Positions 1,827 to 54,390 of a stretch of DNA of 64,000 nucleotides are shown piece by piece. The stretch is taken from contig NZ_CP027668.1 in the NCBI RefSeq assembly GCF_003008515.1, forward strand, positions 2,286,001-2,350,000, in the 5' to 3' direction. The stretch is from Phreatobacter cathodiphilus (GTDB taxonomy: Bacteria; Pseudomonadota; Alphaproteobacteria; Rhizobiales; Phreatobacteraceae). How positions within the stretch are numbered: the stretch's first letter is position 1; each line of letters opens with the position of its first letter. The notes beneath the pieces were generated by a model, which did no database searches, was not told where the DNA came from, and saw nothing but the letters and a program-made list of their open reading frames with translations. A program made the translations under genes and the position numbers.

Positions 1827-1983
1827 GGTCGGGCTCCTCGCGGGCTGACGGGTCTTTCCCCGCACATAGACGCCCGCCGCCGCCCTGCCAAGCGGCCGCG
1901 TCCCGGGCCGCCCGCTAGGAACCGATCCCGCGAGCCCGTCGTTCCTTCCCGACCGGGGGAGGAACGGTCGAGGAGAACAGCTC

Positions 1984-2451
1984 ATGGATCGGAGATATTT
2001 CATCGTCGCGGCGCTGGCCGGGACAACAGGCCTGGCGGCATCGGCCGCACCGGCGAGCGCGGCAGGGCCGATCGGCCTCGCGGACGTCCAGGGCGCCCTC
2101 GGCGCGGCGCCGGGCCAACCCATCGAGATGCAGCGCGGCCGGGGCCCAGGTGGTGGCGGTGGACGCCGCGGCGGCGGGTTCCGAGGTGGCGGCAGGTTCC
2201 GCGGCGGCGGCCGGTTCCGCGGCGGCGGACGGCGCTTCTACGGCGGGCGCGGCTGGGGCGGCCGGGGTTGGCGCCGCCGGGGCTTCTACGGCCGGCCATA
2301 TTATCGTCGCCGCTACTACGGCGGCCCCTATTATGGCGGAGGATACTATGGTGGTCCCTGGGGCTATCGGCGCCGCTGCTGGATCAACCGGTTCGGGCGT
2401 CGCGTCTGCCGCAGGCCGGCGATCCCCTTTCCCTTCTTCCCCTTCTTCTGA
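1984..2451 (+). CDS. Tat-exported Gly/Arg/Tyr-rich protein, C-x9-C family member 1
   Basis: A 155-residue secreted protein of no known function. Residues 1-26 form a signal peptide with a twin-arginine motif (RRYFI at 3-7) and an ASA cleavage site. A short conserved segment follows (LADVQGAL, then EMQR at 48-51), then a low-complexity region of FRGGGR units and Tyr/Gly/Arg repeats (about 53-128). The tail RCWINRFGRRVCRR has Cys132 and Cys142, and the protein ends in Pro/Phe. The same signal, EMQR motif and C-x9-C tail occur in the proteins at 3879 and 6190, so this is a paralogous family. AGGAG-like bases precede the ATG, and the gene has its own terminator. A structural or envelope role is possible but unproven. 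Confidence 0.75.
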   Translation: MDRRYFIVAALAGTTGLAASAAPASAAGPIGLADVQGALGAAPGQPIEMQRGRGPGGGGGRRGGGFRGGGRFRGGGRFRGGGRRFYGGRGWGGRGWRRRGFYGRPYYRRRYYGGPYYGGGYYGGPWGYRRRCWINRFGRRVCRRPAIPFPFFPFF

Positions 2452-2477
2452 CCGGCGCCCCATCGGCGCAACGGCAG

Positions 2478-2503
2478 AGCCCGGCCCCCGCGGCCGGGCT
2501 TTT
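2478..2503 (+). terminator. Intrinsic terminator after Gly-rich gene 1
   Basis: A perfect 9-bp stem, AGCCCGGCC at 2478-2486 with GGCCGGGCT at 2492-2500, has the 5-base loop CCCGC and runs into TTTT. It lies 26 bases after the stop codon, so the gene is probably transcribed alone. Confidence 0.85.
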
Positions 2504-2628
2504 GCCATGGGCCGGCCGGATGGCAGACCGGACCGCAGCGCAGAGCAGGCCCCGGGGCGGCGGTCTATGGTCCGCGCCCCTCGGGAGCCCCCGGCTGCTC
2601 CCGGATAAAGCCGACAGGAGGAGACACC

Positions 2629-3738
2629 ATGTCCGTTCGTGACACCGCCCCCACACGCCGCCGCATGATCGGCACGGCCGGCCTCGCGGGCGCCGCCGCC
2701 ACCCTCGCCACGCCTGCCCTCGCCCAGGCCAATCCGAAGATCAGCTGGCGCCTGACCTCGTCCTATCCCAAGAGCCTCGACACGCTCTTCGGCCTCTCGA
2801 CCCAGGTCGCCAAGCGCGTGGCCGAGGCCACCGACGGCCAGTTCCAGATCCAGCCCTTCGCCGCCGGCGAGATCGTCCCCGCCCTGCAGGCGCTCGACGC
2901 CGTGCAGAACGGCACGGTGGAATGCGGCCACTCGCTCTCCAGCTTTTATATCGGCAAGGACCCGGCCTTCGCCTTCGACACCTCCCTGCCCTTCGGCCTC
3001 AACACCCGCCAGCACAATGCCTGGCTCTACCAGGGCGGCGGCCGCGAACTCGTCGCCGAGTTCATGAAGGGCCACAACGTCCACGCCATCCCCTCGGGCA
3101 ACACGGGCGCCCAGATGGGCGGCTGGTTCCGCAAGGAGATCAAGTCGGTCGCCGACCTCAAGGGTCTGAAGTTCCGCATCGCCGGCCTCGGCGGCACCAT
3201 CATGGCGCGCCTGGGCGTCGTGCCGCAGCAGATCGGCGGCGGCGACATCTATCCCTCGCTCGAGCGCGGCACCATCGACGCGGCGGAATTCTCCGGCCCC
3301 GCCGACGACGAGAAGCTCGGCTTCCAGCGCGTCGCTAAATATTACTATTATCCCGGCTTCTGGGAGGGCTGCGCCAACGTCTCGCTCTTCGTGAACCTGG
3401 ACAAGTGGAACGGCCTGCCGGCCCATTATCGCGCCGTCCTGGAGGCCGCCTGCGCCGAGGCGCTGACCCTCTGCGTCGCCAAGTACGACCACGCCAATCC
3501 CGACGCGCTCTTCCGCCTCGTCGCCAGCGGCGCCGAGCTCCGCGCCTTCCCGCAGGACGTCATGCAGGCCGCCTTCCGCGAGGCCCAGGCCCTCTATGGC
3601 GAACTGGCGGCCGGCAACGCCAATTTCCGCAAGTTCTACGACTCCTGGCTGCCCTACTGGCGCAAGGAGCAGATCTGGTTCCGTGTCGCGGAACTGCCGT
3701 TCGACGCCTTTACATCGTCGCAGGTGCAGGGGCGCTGA
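2629..3738 (+). CDS. TRAP transporter solute-binding protein, DctP family
   Basis: A periplasmic binding protein of a tripartite ATP-independent (TRAP) transporter, 369 residues. The N-terminus has a Tat-type signal (RRRMIG, hydrophobic stretch, ALAQA cleavage site near residue 27). Family features include the SSYPKSLDTLFG start of the mature domain, the ligand-region segment KGLKFRIAGLGG near 180, and the YYYYPGFWEG/WNGLPAHYRAVL segments. The sequence most resembles the oxo-acid-binding (TakP-like) branch, but the ligand cannot be read from it. A strong AGGAGGAG ribosome site precedes the ATG. The DctQ and DctM membrane subunits are not adjacent or anywhere in this window, so the gene is an orphan here. 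Confidence 0.9.
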   Translation: MSVRDTAPTRRRMIGTAGLAGAAATLATPALAQANPKISWRLTSSYPKSLDTLFGLSTQVAKRVAEATDGQFQIQPFAAGEIVPALQALDAVQNGTVECGHSLSSFYIGKDPAFAFDTSLPFGLNTRQHNAWLYQGGGRELVAEFMKGHNVHAIPSGNTGAQMGGWFRKEIKSVADLKGLKFRIAGLGGTIMARLGVVPQQIGGGDIYPSLERGTIDAAEFSGPADDEKLGFQRVAKYYYYPGFWEGCANVSLFVNLDKWNGLPAHYRAVLEAACAEALTLCVAKYDHANPDALFRLVASGAELRAFPQDVMQAAFREAQALYGELAAGNANFRKFYDSWLPYWRKEQIWFRVAELPFDAFTSSQVQGR

Positions 3739-3878
3739 GCCGCGTCAATATTGGCGCCCCGCACTGCAGCAAAATCGACGACATGACCTTTCGTCAGGGC
3801 ACCCACGATGACGATGACGTTCGGGATGACACGTGCTAGTCTTCCTCCCAGGGCGGCGCATAACAGAGGGTGAACGCG

Positions 3879-4316
3879 ATGGATCGTCGGTTTTTTCTGT
3901 TGAGTCTTGCAGGGGGCGCGGTCGCACTGACCGTCGCCGCACCATCGGCGGCCGAGGCCGCTTCCGCAGCCTCGCCGACGTTGGACGCCGTCCGCGGCGC
4001 ACTCGCCGGCGGTGAGCCGGTGGAGATGCAGCGCGGCGGTGGCCGTGGCGGCGGCGGTCGTGGGGGCGGCGGTGGCATGCGCGGTGGCGGCGGCGGTTTC
4101 CGCGGCGGCGGCGGTGGTTTCCGTGGCGGCGGCGGCGGCTTCCGTGGCGGCGGGTTCGGCCCGCGGCCCGGGTTCGGTCCGCGGCCCGGTTTCCGCCCCG
4201 GATGGGGTCCGCGGCCGGGCTTCCGTCGTGGCTGGGGCGGCCCGGTCTATGTCGCGCCCCGGCGCTGCTTCTACAACCGTTGGGGCGAGTGGGTCTGCCG
4301 GCGCCCGGTCTGGTGA
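3879..4316 (+). CDS. Tat-exported Gly-rich protein, C-x9-C family member 2
   Basis: A 145-residue paralogue of the proteins at 1984 and 6190. The signal peptide (residues 1-28) starts MDRRFFLL, a good twin-arginine motif. The conserved DAVRGAL segment and EMQR (49-52) follow, then RGGGGGF-type repeats to about 92, FGPRPG/FRPGWGPRPG units to about 116, and the tail RRCFYNRWGEWVCRRPVW with Cys130 and Cys140. I chose the ATG at 3879 over a GTG nine bases upstream because AGAGGG is correctly spaced before the ATG and both paralogues also begin M-(D/E)-RR. The 140 bases upstream, after the TRAP gene, hold no recognisable feature. Function unknown. Confidence 0.75.
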   Translation: MDRRFFLLSLAGGAVALTVAAPSAAEAASAASPTLDAVRGALAGGEPVEMQRGGGRGGGGRGGGGGMRGGGGGFRGGGGGFRGGGGGFRGGGFGPRPGFGPRPGFRPGWGPRPGFRRGWGGPVYVAPRRCFYNRWGEWVCRRPVW

Positions 4317-4346
4317 CCTGACCGACCCCTTCTATTCGGCATCCAG

Positions 4347-4373
4347 GAAAGCCCGGCCCCGCGCCGGGCTTTC
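4347..4373. terminator. Bidirectional intrinsic terminator
   Basis: A perfect 11-bp stem, GAAAGCCCGGC with GCCGGGCTTTC, and loop CCCGC lie between the convergent Gly-rich gene 2 and dsbB. The A/T-rich ends give a short U run on both strands, so it can serve both genes. It shares stem core and loop with the terminator at 2478. Confidence 0.8.
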
Positions 4374-4390
4374 TCATGGCTGGACGGCCC

Positions 4391-5029
4391 TCAGGGAGCC
4401 CAGAGCCCGTCGAGGCCCAGCCGGATGAGCTTGTAGCCGTCGGTATGGCAGGCGCCGAAGCCGCATTGCACCACCACCGCGCCGAGGTTCAGCAGCGCCA
4501 GCACGATGAGATAGGCGGCTGCGAAATCGGCAACCCGCGCCAGGGCCGGGAAGGCCTCGACGTGCAGGCGCGCCACCCGGCGCTCGCCGCCGAAGAGAGC
4601 AAGGGCGACGGCCTGCGCCGCGATGATCACGGTGGCGATGACGACGGACCAGACCGGCATGTGCAGACCGAACACGGCCGAGCCGACATAGGCGTGATCC
4701 GGCCGCGGCACGATGTCGAGCAGCGTCTGGCGCACCGAGACGACGAGCAGCAGCAGGGCGAAGAGCAGGCCGATTCCCGTATTGCGGTGGGAGAAGGCGC
4801 GGAAGTTCTGCATCAGCGCGAAGCCGACTCCGAACAGCGCCGCCCGCTGCAGCAGGCAGAGCGGGCACGGCAGCTCGCCCTTGGCGAACTGCATCACCAT
4901 GGCCGCGGTGATCACGACGTCGATGGCGACGAGCATGCCGGCGAGGAAGAGATAGTTGAGCCCGGCCGCCACCCGCTCCATGCGGGTGATCGGCAGATCG
5001 ACCGCGACGACGCCGCCGAGCATCCTCAC
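4391..5029 (-). CDS. dsbB: Disulfide bond formation protein B (DsbB family)
   Basis: An inner-membrane protein that reoxidises the periplasmic thiol oxidase DsbA using quinone. The 212 residues carry several membrane segments and the hallmark CPLCLLQR motif (about residues 55-62), the quinone-reducing Cys pair next to the conserved Gln-Arg. A second Cys pair near the C-terminus (QCGFGAC) may be the partner pair. Its position is unusual for classical DsbB, so this may be a divergent subfamily. The GTG start overlaps the stop of the upstream small membrane protein (GTGA), implying translational coupling. No dsbA is present in the window. Confidence 0.85.
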   Translation of the reverse strand: MRMLGGVVAVDLPITRMERVAAGLNYLFLAGMLVAIDVVITAAMVMQFAKGELPCPLCLLQRAALFGVGFALMQNFRAFSHRNTGIGLLFALLLLVVSVRQTLLDIVPRPDHAYVGSAVFGLHMPVWSVVIATVIIAAQAVALALFGGERRVARLHVEAFPALARVADFAAAYLIVLALLNLGAVVVQCGFGACHTDGYKLIRLGLDGLWAP

Positions 5030-5235
5030 GCCTCCCGCGGCGGTTCGGCCGTGCCGACCTGCAGCCAGGGCAGGCGGAAGCCGTATTCCGGGCTGTAGAT
5101 CTCGAACAGGAACAGCCAGACGAAGAGGCAGAGGCAGGCGAAGAGACTGGCCAGCGCCGCCCAGCGCGGGCCGAACTGGCCGAGCAGGATGGCGAGCACC
5201 AGCGTCGCGAACACCGCCACCATCATGACCGTCAC
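5026..5235 (-). CDS. Small two-segment membrane protein coupled to dsbB
   Basis: A 69-residue hydrophobic protein of unknown family. Two predicted membrane helices (about residues 5-20 and 25-46) are followed by a short tail rich in Pro, Glu and Arg. Its stop codon overlaps the dsbB start by four bases, so the two are probably translated together and the protein may assist or anchor the disulfide oxidase. The pairing is seen in the sequence; the role is inference. Confidence 0.6.
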   Translation of the reverse strand: MTVMMVAVFATLVLAILLGQFGPRWAALASLFACLCLFVWLFLFEIYSPEYGFRLPWLQVGTAEPPREA

Positions 5236-5325
5236 GCCCCCGACAGGCCGCCGACGGGACCCCTCGCCCCGCCGCGACCAGCCTGCGACGCGGGGGCGGC
5301 GACGGTCAAGATGCCGTTGCGGGGC

Positions 5326-6054
5326 TCAGCCGCGTTCGTCGGAACGCTCGATCTTGCCGCGCCGCTGCAACCACAGCGCCACCAGCCAGCAGAACATCGC
5401 CCAGGCGGCGCCGAGGCACCAGCCGGCGAGCACGTCGGTCGGCCAGTGCACACCCAGATAGATCCGGCTGATGCCGATCAGCACCGTCATCACCAGGGCC
5501 ACGGCGAGGAAATAGGCGTGGACCCGGCGCGGCGCGTCGAGGCGGGTGAGCAGCACGCCGAGCGTCAGATAGGTCACGGCCGAGATCATGGCATGGCCGG
5601 AGGGGAAGCTCGCCGTCAGCTCCAGCGGCGCATTGGGGATGAGGTCGGGCCGCGGCCGGTCGAAGAACAGCTTCATGCCGTGGCTCAGGAGGGTGCCGCC
5701 GGCCACGGCGGCCACGACGAAGAGGGCGGCCGCGCGCTTGCCGACGAGAACCAGATAAACCGTCACCACGGCCACGATGAGGGTCAAGACCGCCAGCCCG
5801 CCGAGGGCGGTGATGTCGCGCATGACGCCGGACAGCCAGGCCGGGCCCGGCCCCCGCGAGAGGTCGGCGGGGTCGCGGAACATGAGCAGCACCGCCCGGT
5901 CGAAGGCCTCCGTTTCGCCCTCCACCACGATGTCGGCCAGCCTCAGGAAGGCGAGGATGCCGCCGGCGATGACCACGAGAACGATGGCGAGGCCGATCTC
6001 CTCGCGCAGGAGGCGGAGCACGCGCGGGGCCGACCATGAGGCAAGGAACGTCAT
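5326..6054 (-). CDS. PAP2 superfamily membrane phosphatase
   Basis: A 242-residue integral membrane phosphatase, probably acting on a lipid phosphate or pyrophosphate at the periplasmic face. All three PAP2 signatures are present: KLFFDRPRP, PSGH, and SRIYLGVHWPTDVLAGW with the catalytic His and Asp. About six hydrophobic segments surround them. I chose the ATG giving MTFLASWSAPRVL because the longer open frame upstream reads antisense through the Gly/Arg gene at 6190. The substrate (for example undecaprenyl pyrophosphate or phosphatidate) cannot be decided from sequence. Confidence 0.88.
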   Translation of the reverse strand: MTFLASWSAPRVLRLLREEIGLAIVLVVIAGGILAFLRLADIVVEGETEAFDRAVLLMFRDPADLSRGPGPAWLSGVMRDITALGGLAVLTLIVAVVTVYLVLVGKRAAALFVVAAVAGGTLLSHGMKLFFDRPRPDLIPNAPLELTASFPSGHAMISAVTYLTLGVLLTRLDAPRRVHAYFLAVALVMTVLIGISRIYLGVHWPTDVLAGWCLGAAWAMFCWLVALWLQRRGKIERSDERG

Positions 6055-6189
6055 CGGCGAGACTTGGACGTCGCCCCGCGGAGCGTCAAGGGCGCGGCCC
6101 TGTGACAATCCGACTGCCGCCGGGGAACCGTCTGCGCCCCGGCGTGTTGACGTCCGGGGCTGGAGCAATTCACTCGAGGAGGAAGCGAT

Positions 6190-6459
6190 ATGGAACGCCG
6201 GATCTTTCTGACGGCCCTCGCCGGCGGCCTTGCCGTCACCACCACCGCCGCGTTCACGCAGGTCCAGGCCGCCCCGGCGACGGACCTGGCCGGCGTCAGG
6301 TCGGCGCTGCAGCCGGCCGCTGCCGCCATGCCGGAGGAGATGCAGCGCCGCCGCTGGCGCCGTCCCCCGCCGTGGGTGCGCCGTCGCCGCCGCTGGATGC
6401 GCCGTCGCCGGCGCTGTTTCATCAACCGTCGCGGCTTCCGCGTGTGTCGCTGGTATTGA
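6190..6459 (+). CDS. Tat-exported Arg-rich protein, C-x9-C family member 3
   Basis: The shortest member (89 residues) of the family with genes at 1984 and 3879. The signal MERRIFLTAL has a twin-arginine motif and an AAFTQVQA-type cleavage region. DLAGVRSAL and EMQR (50-53) follow, then a strongly basic Arg/Trp/Pro stretch instead of Gly repeats (54-75), and the tail RRCFINRRGFRVCRWY with Cys76 and Cys86. The conserved ends and variable middle suggest that the two ends carry the shared function. A strong GAGGAGGAAG ribosome site precedes the ATG. A nucleic-acid- or polyanion-binding middle is possible, but function is unknown. Confidence 0.75.
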   Translation: MERRIFLTALAGGLAVTTTAAFTQVQAAPATDLAGVRSALQPAAAAMPEEMQRRRWRRPPPWVRRRRRWMRRRRRCFINRRGFRVCRWY

Positions 6460-6484
6460 TCCAGCCACGCGTAAGCTGACGGAG

Positions 6485-6523
6485 AACGGACCGGCTGCCC
6501 CCTCGGCCGGTCCGTTTCTTTTT
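6485..6523 (+). terminator. Intrinsic terminator after Arg-rich gene 3
   Basis: An 11-bp stem, AACGGACCGGC at 6485-6495 with GCCGGTCCGTT at 6506-6516, is followed by a T-rich run. Like the other two family genes, this one is a single transcription unit. Confidence 0.82.
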
Positions 6524-54002: not shown

Positions 54003-54081
54003 GGGACCTCCGAAGGTGCGCGGAACCGCAAGCCTGCCCCAGCCGTTGGCCCTTGAACATTCCCCCGAACAGGAGGCGGCG

Positions 54082-54390
54082 ATGCCCCAGGGCGACAAGT
54101 CGGCCTATACGGACAAGCAGAAGCGCAAGGCCGAGCATATCGAGAAGAGCTACGAGGAGCGCGGCACCTCGGAGAAGCGGGCGGAAGCCATCGCCTGGGC
54201 GACCGTCAACAAGGAGAGCGGCGGCGGCAACAAGTCTGGCTCCGGCCGCGGCAAGGCCGACACCAAGGTCTCGGCCAAACGGGGCGGCGCGAAGGGTGGC
54301 GCCGCCAGCGCCTCGCGCAGCGCCGCGGAGCGGTCCGCCTCCGCGAAGAAGGCCGCCGCGACCCGCAAGCGTAACGCCGCCAGGCACTGA
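54082..54390 (+). CDS. Small Lys/Ala-rich protein, plasmid-stabilization-like family
   Basis: A 102-residue basic protein. The first half (GDKSAYTDKQKRKAEHIE, then SEKRAEAIAWATVNKESGGG) is a conserved domain common in alphaproteobacteria, often called plasmid stabilization protein without proof. The second half is a Lys/Ala/Ser/Arg-rich tail like that of histone H1-type proteins, suggesting nucleic-acid binding. AGGAGG precedes the ATG. It is a single gene. The name should not be taken as function. Confidence 0.75.
   Translation: MPQGDKSAYTDKQKRKAEHIEKSYEERGTSEKRAEAIAWATVNKESGGGNKSGSGRGKADTKVSAKRGGAKGGAASASRSAAERSASAKKAAATRKRNAARH

Follow-up and report, generated by a model that had tools for sequence, protein, structure and literature searches.

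In a 64,000-nucleotide stretch of Phreatobacter cathodiphilus DNA (contig NZ_CP027668.1, positions 2,286,001 to 2,350,000, hereafter the window; the source genome is complete and measures 4.49 Mb), three neighbouring genes of this freshwater bacterium, here called A, B and C, encode proteins that share a start typical of twin-arginine translocation (Tat), an EMQR box and a C-terminal tail with two cysteines. We assign a probability of about one half to the reading that A, B and C are cationic proteins made under stress, exported by Tat and capped by a disulfide, and that they coat the anionic cell envelope. The evidence is a family found throughout the genus, a tail modelled as a hairpin, and promoter sites of the type read by EcfG in the alphaproteobacterial general stress response, which accompany the tailed members of the family and also an unrelated lipoprotein that carries the same tail.

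A Phreatobacter family with a conserved box

The initial annotation had described three open reading frames at 1984, 3879 and 6190 with a common start, EMQR and a C-x9-C tail, and both the coordinates and a three-row alignment agree with it, the three boxes all falling within the range of residues 48–53 that it gave (Table 1). All three proteins begin with M[DE]RRxF, in which R3, R4 and F6 are invariant, as are E-M-Q-R and the tail residues RRC..NR.G..VCR. The tails follow the common pattern RRC[FW][IY]NRxGxxVCR, and each pair of cysteines (132/142 in A, 130/140 in B and 76/86 in C) encloses nine residues.

When whole genomes were searched with a profile of the three sequences, matches were obtained in 12 of 12 Phreatobacter genomes vs one of the 29 genomes from elsewhere in the order (E ≤ 0.01). 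This difference indicates that the likeness of A, B and C goes beyond chance, and they are almost certainly members of a real Phreatobacter paralogue family. The family is genus-wide in Phreatobacter and rare elsewhere in the samples searched; a tail-less member used as query gave weak matches in 4 of 285 genomes outside the genus (E ≤ 0.001), and a plasmid search for relatives of A gave no match. When named relatives were sought through the family patterns, 200 stretches matched but none could be confirmed, the likely cause being the filtering of low-complexity sequence. Pfam and NCBIfam scans provided no name for the family (A, B and C belong to no NCBIfam family), nor was a description of it met in listings of the open-licence literature, which carry the starts of abstracts.

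To describe the family we used 71 distinct members from fetched loci, chosen by the pattern [ED]M[QR][RWYFG] and by composition. Constancy of the box inside this set is built in by the pattern, and the set includes near-identical orthologues as well as two odd rows, L070 (cut off) and L098 (irregular start). Proline at position –2, which lies outside the pattern, is nevertheless present in 62 of the 71 members (P-x-[ED]-M-[QR]), and EMQS, EMQT and EMQN members exist beyond the pattern. Together with the slot alignments, these observations support conservation of the box independently of the selection. The box is also retained with a different signal: members with another, Sec-like start still carry VEMQRR or similar (e.g. 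L004 and L031). The P. cathodiphilus genome itself encodes eight or more Tat-type members, of which five besides A, B and C lie at 1034120, 1493286, 1508989, 1509392 and 1542647, and two Sec-like ones (378153 and 1068955).

Behind the box, the bodies are rich in Gly/Arg/Tyr (A, B), Arg/Trp (C), Tyr/Pro/Arg or His/Arg, or consist of RRRYW repeats or Arg/Val/Ala stretches. All classes are strongly basic, with a mean isoelectric point of 11.0–12.0, and past the glutamate of the box, acidic residues number at most one per member in the four classes counted. PxEM[QR], the best-conserved border, would mark where the body begins and is probably recognised or processed. The view that tail and EMQR always occur together had to be given up, since many paralogues retain PxEM[QR] without a tail and the tail is also found on a glycine-zipper lipoprotein. 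The proposal of constant ends with a swapped middle survived in part: at one syntenic place, slot C, seven genomes have an Arg/Trp-rich body and two a His-rich one, but otherwise the type of body stays constant within a syntenic slot. Similarly, an aromatic last residue is found in A, B, C and 28 of 31 tailed members but in none of 12 EMR-type members.

As to export, a simple rule recognised a Tat-type start in 62 of the 71 members, and R3 and R4 are invariant among 18 family starts. A, B and C have the Tat hallmarks, namely a twin-arginine RRxF, a hydrophobic stretch and an A-x-A site (the latter seen by eye), and TatC is encoded in the source genome (E 3.4e-65). Judging from these features, A, B and C are likely proteins made for Tat export.

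EcfG-type sites and the predicted hairpin tail

A and C are each preceded by a match to GGAAC-N16-18-[CT]GTT, the form in which EcfG-type sites were sought (Table 1); the published Sphingomonas motif, as given in the available part of that account, is GGAAC-N17-20-GTT (PMC6599016). After two of the 71 members with less than 120 bases upstream had been dropped, 20 of the remaining 69 family genes had the site upstream vs 0.4 expected in 69 random 250-base stretches (an estimate based on 5000 stretches drawn at random from the same DNA). Counted over 200 bases upstream, the sites fall entirely to the tailed genes (20/31) vs none of the 38 tail-less and Sec-like relatives; among the tailed classes, they precede 8 of 12 Gly, 8 of 10 Arg, 2 of 7 EMQW-tail and 2 of 2 His genes. 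The distance to the ATG is 36–58 bases for 18 of the 20 sites and 74 for the other two. No site was found upstream of neighbour genes in relatives (0/48) or of the window's own neighbours (0/8); for the tailed genes themselves, the reverse orientation upstream gave 0/31 and the downstream side, in either orientation, 1/31. The strict form GGAAC-N16-17-CGTT was counted five times in the window vs 0.49 expected, once as the site of A; the wider form, with nine occurrences vs 1.53 expected, adds the site of C. The source genome encodes NepR (49.8 bits vs a cut-off of 25.7), and an ECF (extracytoplasmic function) sigma frame and a PhyR-like frame were recognised by eye within the same 3-kb locus. 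EcfG would thus be likely to control A and C.

An unrelated lipoprotein with a glycine zipper (235412–235675 of the source genome; PF13488, 29.9 bits, cut-off 25) has this tail at its C-terminus as well. It has an orthologue in 12 of 12 Phreatobacter genomes; in three of them (G003, G007 and G008) its tail reads CWID.YGYRRC. Because an EcfG-type site precedes the lipoprotein gene in 10 of the 12 genomes, the tail goes with the site even on an unrelated body.

AlphaFold2 modelled the tails of A and C as beta-hairpins. In C, the two tail blocks have a model confidence (predicted local distance difference test, pLDDT) of 86 and 91, with a mean of 65.1 for the protein; in A, the value is 87 in block 131–140 and about 40 in the body. 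As the modelled strands hold one cysteine each, the hairpin is most naturally read as closed by a disulfide, and on the strength of these models the pair is likely to form one. A search of solved structures for the tail gave two matches, both with E 0.4, which we judged to be chance. An alignment of tailed members comprised 20 rows, 12 of 32 having been left out as near copies. A tail profile gave high-scoring matches in 12 of 12 Phreatobacter genomes, a strength that follows in part from its having been made from sequences of the genus. Elsewhere in the order sample it matched 30 of 285 genomes at E ≤ 0.05, with E below 1e-3 for three, and in the class sample 4 of 384 others at E ≤ 0.005, all partially.

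Glycine-zipper lipoproteins of other Hyphomicrobiales genera (L220–L237; 18 fetched, 15 readable) have looser Cys-to-Cys tails, with [ND]xxG in 14 of 15, and an EcfG-type site in 3 of the 15; they point to a wider, unnamed hairpin-tail theme. The idea that tail DNA was recently exchanged between these genes and that of the lipoprotein was considered and rejected, as the bases shared out of 39 (30 for A, 28 for B, 25 for C and 34 for 1542647) could be explained by codon bias.

Other upstream elements were seen in the family. A direct repeat, GTTCA-N6-GTTCA, with an 11-base period stands upstream of EMQW-type genes in L006, L007, L056, L057, L059, L072, L095 and L099; against a background of 0.00245 per 250 bases, it precedes all three tail-less EMQW genes and five of the seven EMQW-tail genes, of which the other two carry an EcfG-type site. 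Its regulator may be guessed to be of the OmpR type. Among tail-less members, CAGAAACA was found upstream of 9 of 16 EMQY genes and CTAAA...CGATAT upstream of 8 of 11 EMR genes.

Genes and neighbourhood in the window

The features of the three genes are collected in Table 1. That each gene has its own ribosome site, as had been proposed, is borne out by motifs seen by eye 5′ of the three ATGs (GAGGAG, GAGGGTG and GAGGAGG for A, B and C), and the same can be said of the terminators, with U-run hairpins following all three genes.

Table 1. Coordinates, in window positions, of genes A, B and C and of associated features
Feature	Position	Strand	Description
Gene A	1984..2451	+	155 residues; Tat-type signal, PIEMQR, Gly/Arg/Tyr body, hairpin tail
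Gene B	3879..4316	+	145 residues; Tat-type signal, PVEMQR, RGGGGGF/FGPRPG body, hairpin tail; without EcfG-type site
Gene C	6190..6459	+	89 residues; Tat-type signal, PEEMQR, Arg/Trp body, hairpin tail
EcfG-type site of A	1918..1943	+	GGAAC-N17-CGTT; 40 bases to ATG
EcfG-type site of C	6124..6148	+	GGAAC-N16-TGTT; 41 bases to ATG
EMQR box of A	2125..2136	+	residues 48–51
EMQR box of B	4023..4034	+	residues 49–52
EMQR box of C	6337..6348	+	residues 50–53
Predicted hairpin tail of A	2371..2412	+	RRCWINRFGRRVCR; residues 130–143; modelled strands 131–134 and 140–143
Predicted hairpin tail of B	4260..4301	+	RRCFYNRWGEWVCR; residues 128–141; from alignment
Predicted hairpin tail of C	6409..6450	+	RRCFINRRGFRVCR; residues 74–87; modelled strands 74–78 and 84–88
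Terminator-like hairpin 3′ of A	2473..2506	+	hairpin and short U run, z –3.10; absent from consensus-scan list
Terminator-like hairpin 3′ of B	4346..4374	+	hairpin and short U run, z –2.67; absent from consensus-scan list
Terminator hairpin 3′ of C	6481..6521	+	z –3.92; consensus scan lists 6484–6517
DsbB-family protein (PF02600)	4391..5029	–	convergent with B

The locus is bounded by GlmM and by a gene that was recognised by eye as an aldo/keto reductase, and its order is DUF3297, slot A, a DctP solute-binding protein, slot B, a DsbB-family protein, a small membrane frame, PAP2, slot C and GGDEF. At least one tailed member is present there in 11 of the 12 genomes, the exception being G007; contig ends cut the locus in G001 and G002. 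The DsbB-family gene overlaps by 4 bases a 69-residue membrane frame with a sub-threshold DUF5993 match (both within 4391–5235 on the minus strand), and the two probably form a coupled disulfide pair. The DsbB-family neighbour of B is a possible source of tail oxidation; its occurrence across the genus, given below, led us to reject it as an obligatory partner.

Tandem clusters of two to four tail-less PxEM[QR] proteins with RRRYW repeats or Arg/Val/Ala stretches were observed in L152 (8989–9628, corresponding to 1508989–1509628 of the source genome), L144 and L145. A small Gln/Glu/Ala-rich frame (L152, 9753–10190, plus strand) adjoins the cluster, and matches to it were seen in 7 of the 11 loci that were compared. 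At the two loci examined, the window locus and the tandem cluster, no enzyme gene was found to accompany the family; a partner operon was rejected, as the neighbours look housekeeping (those of the cluster by eye) and have no enzyme in common.

Elsewhere in the window, an EcfG-type site (54022–54047, plus strand) lies 34 bases 5′ of a 102-residue Lys/Gly/Ala-rich frame (54082–54390, plus strand) with a good ribosome site. The frame has no Pfam match and may be another general stress gene.

Competing explanations and known systems

The favoured explanation can be put as a sequence of steps. When the PhyR-NepR-EcfG switch is turned on, the tailed set would be made, cross the inner membrane by Tat and lose the signal peptide. 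In the oxidising periplasm the two cysteines would close the beta-hairpin, and the unfolded Arg/Gly/aromatic body would bind polyanionic envelope material (lipopolysaccharide, capsule or exopolysaccharide). The hairpin, common to these proteins and the lipoprotein, might serve as a stable C-terminal cap or as a shared docking part, giving a protective coat. B would do the same job as A and C from a different promoter. The envelope-coat role itself is tentative, and we place the odds somewhat against it.

Several observations weigh against this explanation. B has no EcfG-type site upstream, and 11 of the 31 tailed genes lack one; five of the seven EMQW-tail genes carry the GTTCA-N6-GTTCA repeat instead. 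The Fisher p-value of 7e-10 for the link between tail and site is overstated, as orthologues are not independent, and is a guide only. In the lipoprotein genes, the site lies 144–171 bases from the start and is lacking in 2 of 12 orthologues. For the tailed proteins read, the link was not found outside the genus: in 17 loci of tailed or similar proteins (16 from other genera plus the source genome's lipoprotein), two sites were seen, one at that lipoprotein and one, palindromic, in L078. Tat export, as the initial annotation had it, is backed by the RRxF start of all three proteins and by TatC, but Pfam TAT_signal matches none of A, B or C even at E ≤ 10, and one paralogue stays below its cut-off (17.3 vs 22.7 bits). 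A slot A copy (L029) from a metagenome-assembled genome, G011, has the second tail cysteine replaced by Trp, and a DsbB-family gene stands at the place beside B in 4 of 12 genomes, one of these being a short match.

The constant front and variable body of the family also fit secreted cationic peptide precursors, in which a constant pre-pro part is cut at PxEM[QR] and the variable Arg/Trp or Gly/Arg body, bearing a disulfide hairpin in some cases, acts on competitors, much as in animal cathelicidins. Such precursors would account for the retention of PxEM[QR] while signal type, body and tail vary, for Arg/Trp/Tyr-rich bodies such as RRRYWRRRYYW and for the modelled hairpin tail. However, purifying selection keeps the bodies within slots: in slot orthologues, the ratio of nonsynonymous to synonymous substitution rates (dN/dS) is below 1 in every region (signal 0.24–0.37, pro-region 0.26–0.51, body 0.21–0.39) and lowest in the box (0–0.22) and tail (0–0.20), although the values are rough, with synonymous sites near saturation (proportion of synonymous differences, pS, 0.23–0.64) and 15 codon pairs in the slot A box. 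Moreover, no immunity, maturation or export gene was seen adjoining the family at the two loci examined, the tailed members are mostly under the stress promoter and their tail is shared with a lipoprotein. We consider peptide precursors unlikely and favour envelope protection over them because of the link of the tailed genes to the general stress promoter.

That promoter also agrees with hydrophilin-like protectants, that is, unfolded, water-binding exported proteins that would protect membranes and periplasmic proteins under drying or salt stress, in which charge is secondary and the hairpin is a mere cap. Hydrophilins are usually delimited by Gly above 6% and hydrophilicity above 1; the tailed classes have mean values of 11–40% and 1.06–2.04, and the body of A was modelled at a pLDDT of about 40. 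Yet Gly makes up 1–2% of the EMQY and EMR classes, and strongly cationic, aromatic-rich bodies suggest binding rather than mere hydration, which makes hydrophilins an improbable account too. A radical-SAM-modified ribosomal peptide, our initial idea from the tail motifs C-W-I-N, C-F-Y-N and C-F-I-N (W-x-N and F-x-N taken as three-residue cyclophane sites, as in the exported Gly-rich precursors of GrrA type) on Gly-rich exported bodies, was dropped as very improbable, because neither GrrM (E ≤ 1) nor SPASM (E ≤ 0.001) gave a match in the complete genome, no peptide model matched (A, B and C have no NCBIfam family), and the two examined loci share no enzyme gene.

Coming back to the stress-induced envelope proteins, a bolder extension is that the C[FW]xNRxGxxVC hairpin is a docking module of the stress regulon, through which otherwise unrelated EcfG-controlled envelope proteins assemble on one shared partner. 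Cationic Tat proteins, whose bodies (rich in Gly, Arg or His) would be interchangeable, would then come together with a lipoprotein of outer-membrane type, and the bodies expressed would set the chemistry of the coat. We regard this extension as doubtful. Should the proteins coat the envelope and the hairpin decide where they go, this would be a bacterial stress coat in which different low-complexity bodies are exchanged on a single fixed anchor. The tailed proteins may be envelope armour for times of stress. Alphaproteobacterial general stress regulons contain many small hypothetical proteins without function, and here sequence alone gives such a family a likely regulator, a likely export route and a shared end module.

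Among known systems, Gly-rich proteins of the GRP family (PF07172) share a Gly-rich stretch with B, which scores 29.1 bits against a cut-off of 30; the resemblance is one of composition, no match was obtained for A or C, and GRP includes neither box nor tail. Hydrophilins are likewise Gly-rich, hydrophilic (by class means) and stress-linked, whereas the A/B/C family is strongly cationic and aromatic and has a conserved box and a hairpin tail. The Gly-zipper_Omp lipoproteins (PF13488) carry the same Cys hairpin tail in Phreatobacter, but they are lipoproteins with a hydrophobic glycine zipper, in contrast to the Tat-type start and cationic body of A, B and C. The EcfG regulon is matched by NepR in the genome and by GGAAC-N16-18-[CT]GTT sites, which precede A and C, 20 of the 31 tailed family genes and the gene of the lipoprotein with the tail. 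The EcfG list for Sphingomonas, in the part of the published account available, includes a small secreted protein along with several hypothetical ones and does not describe the A/B/C family (PMC6599016); control by EcfG is here read from the promoter sequence. Small hypothetical EcfG proteins are already known, and what is new is a tail module tied to an EcfG-type promoter on two unrelated bodies.

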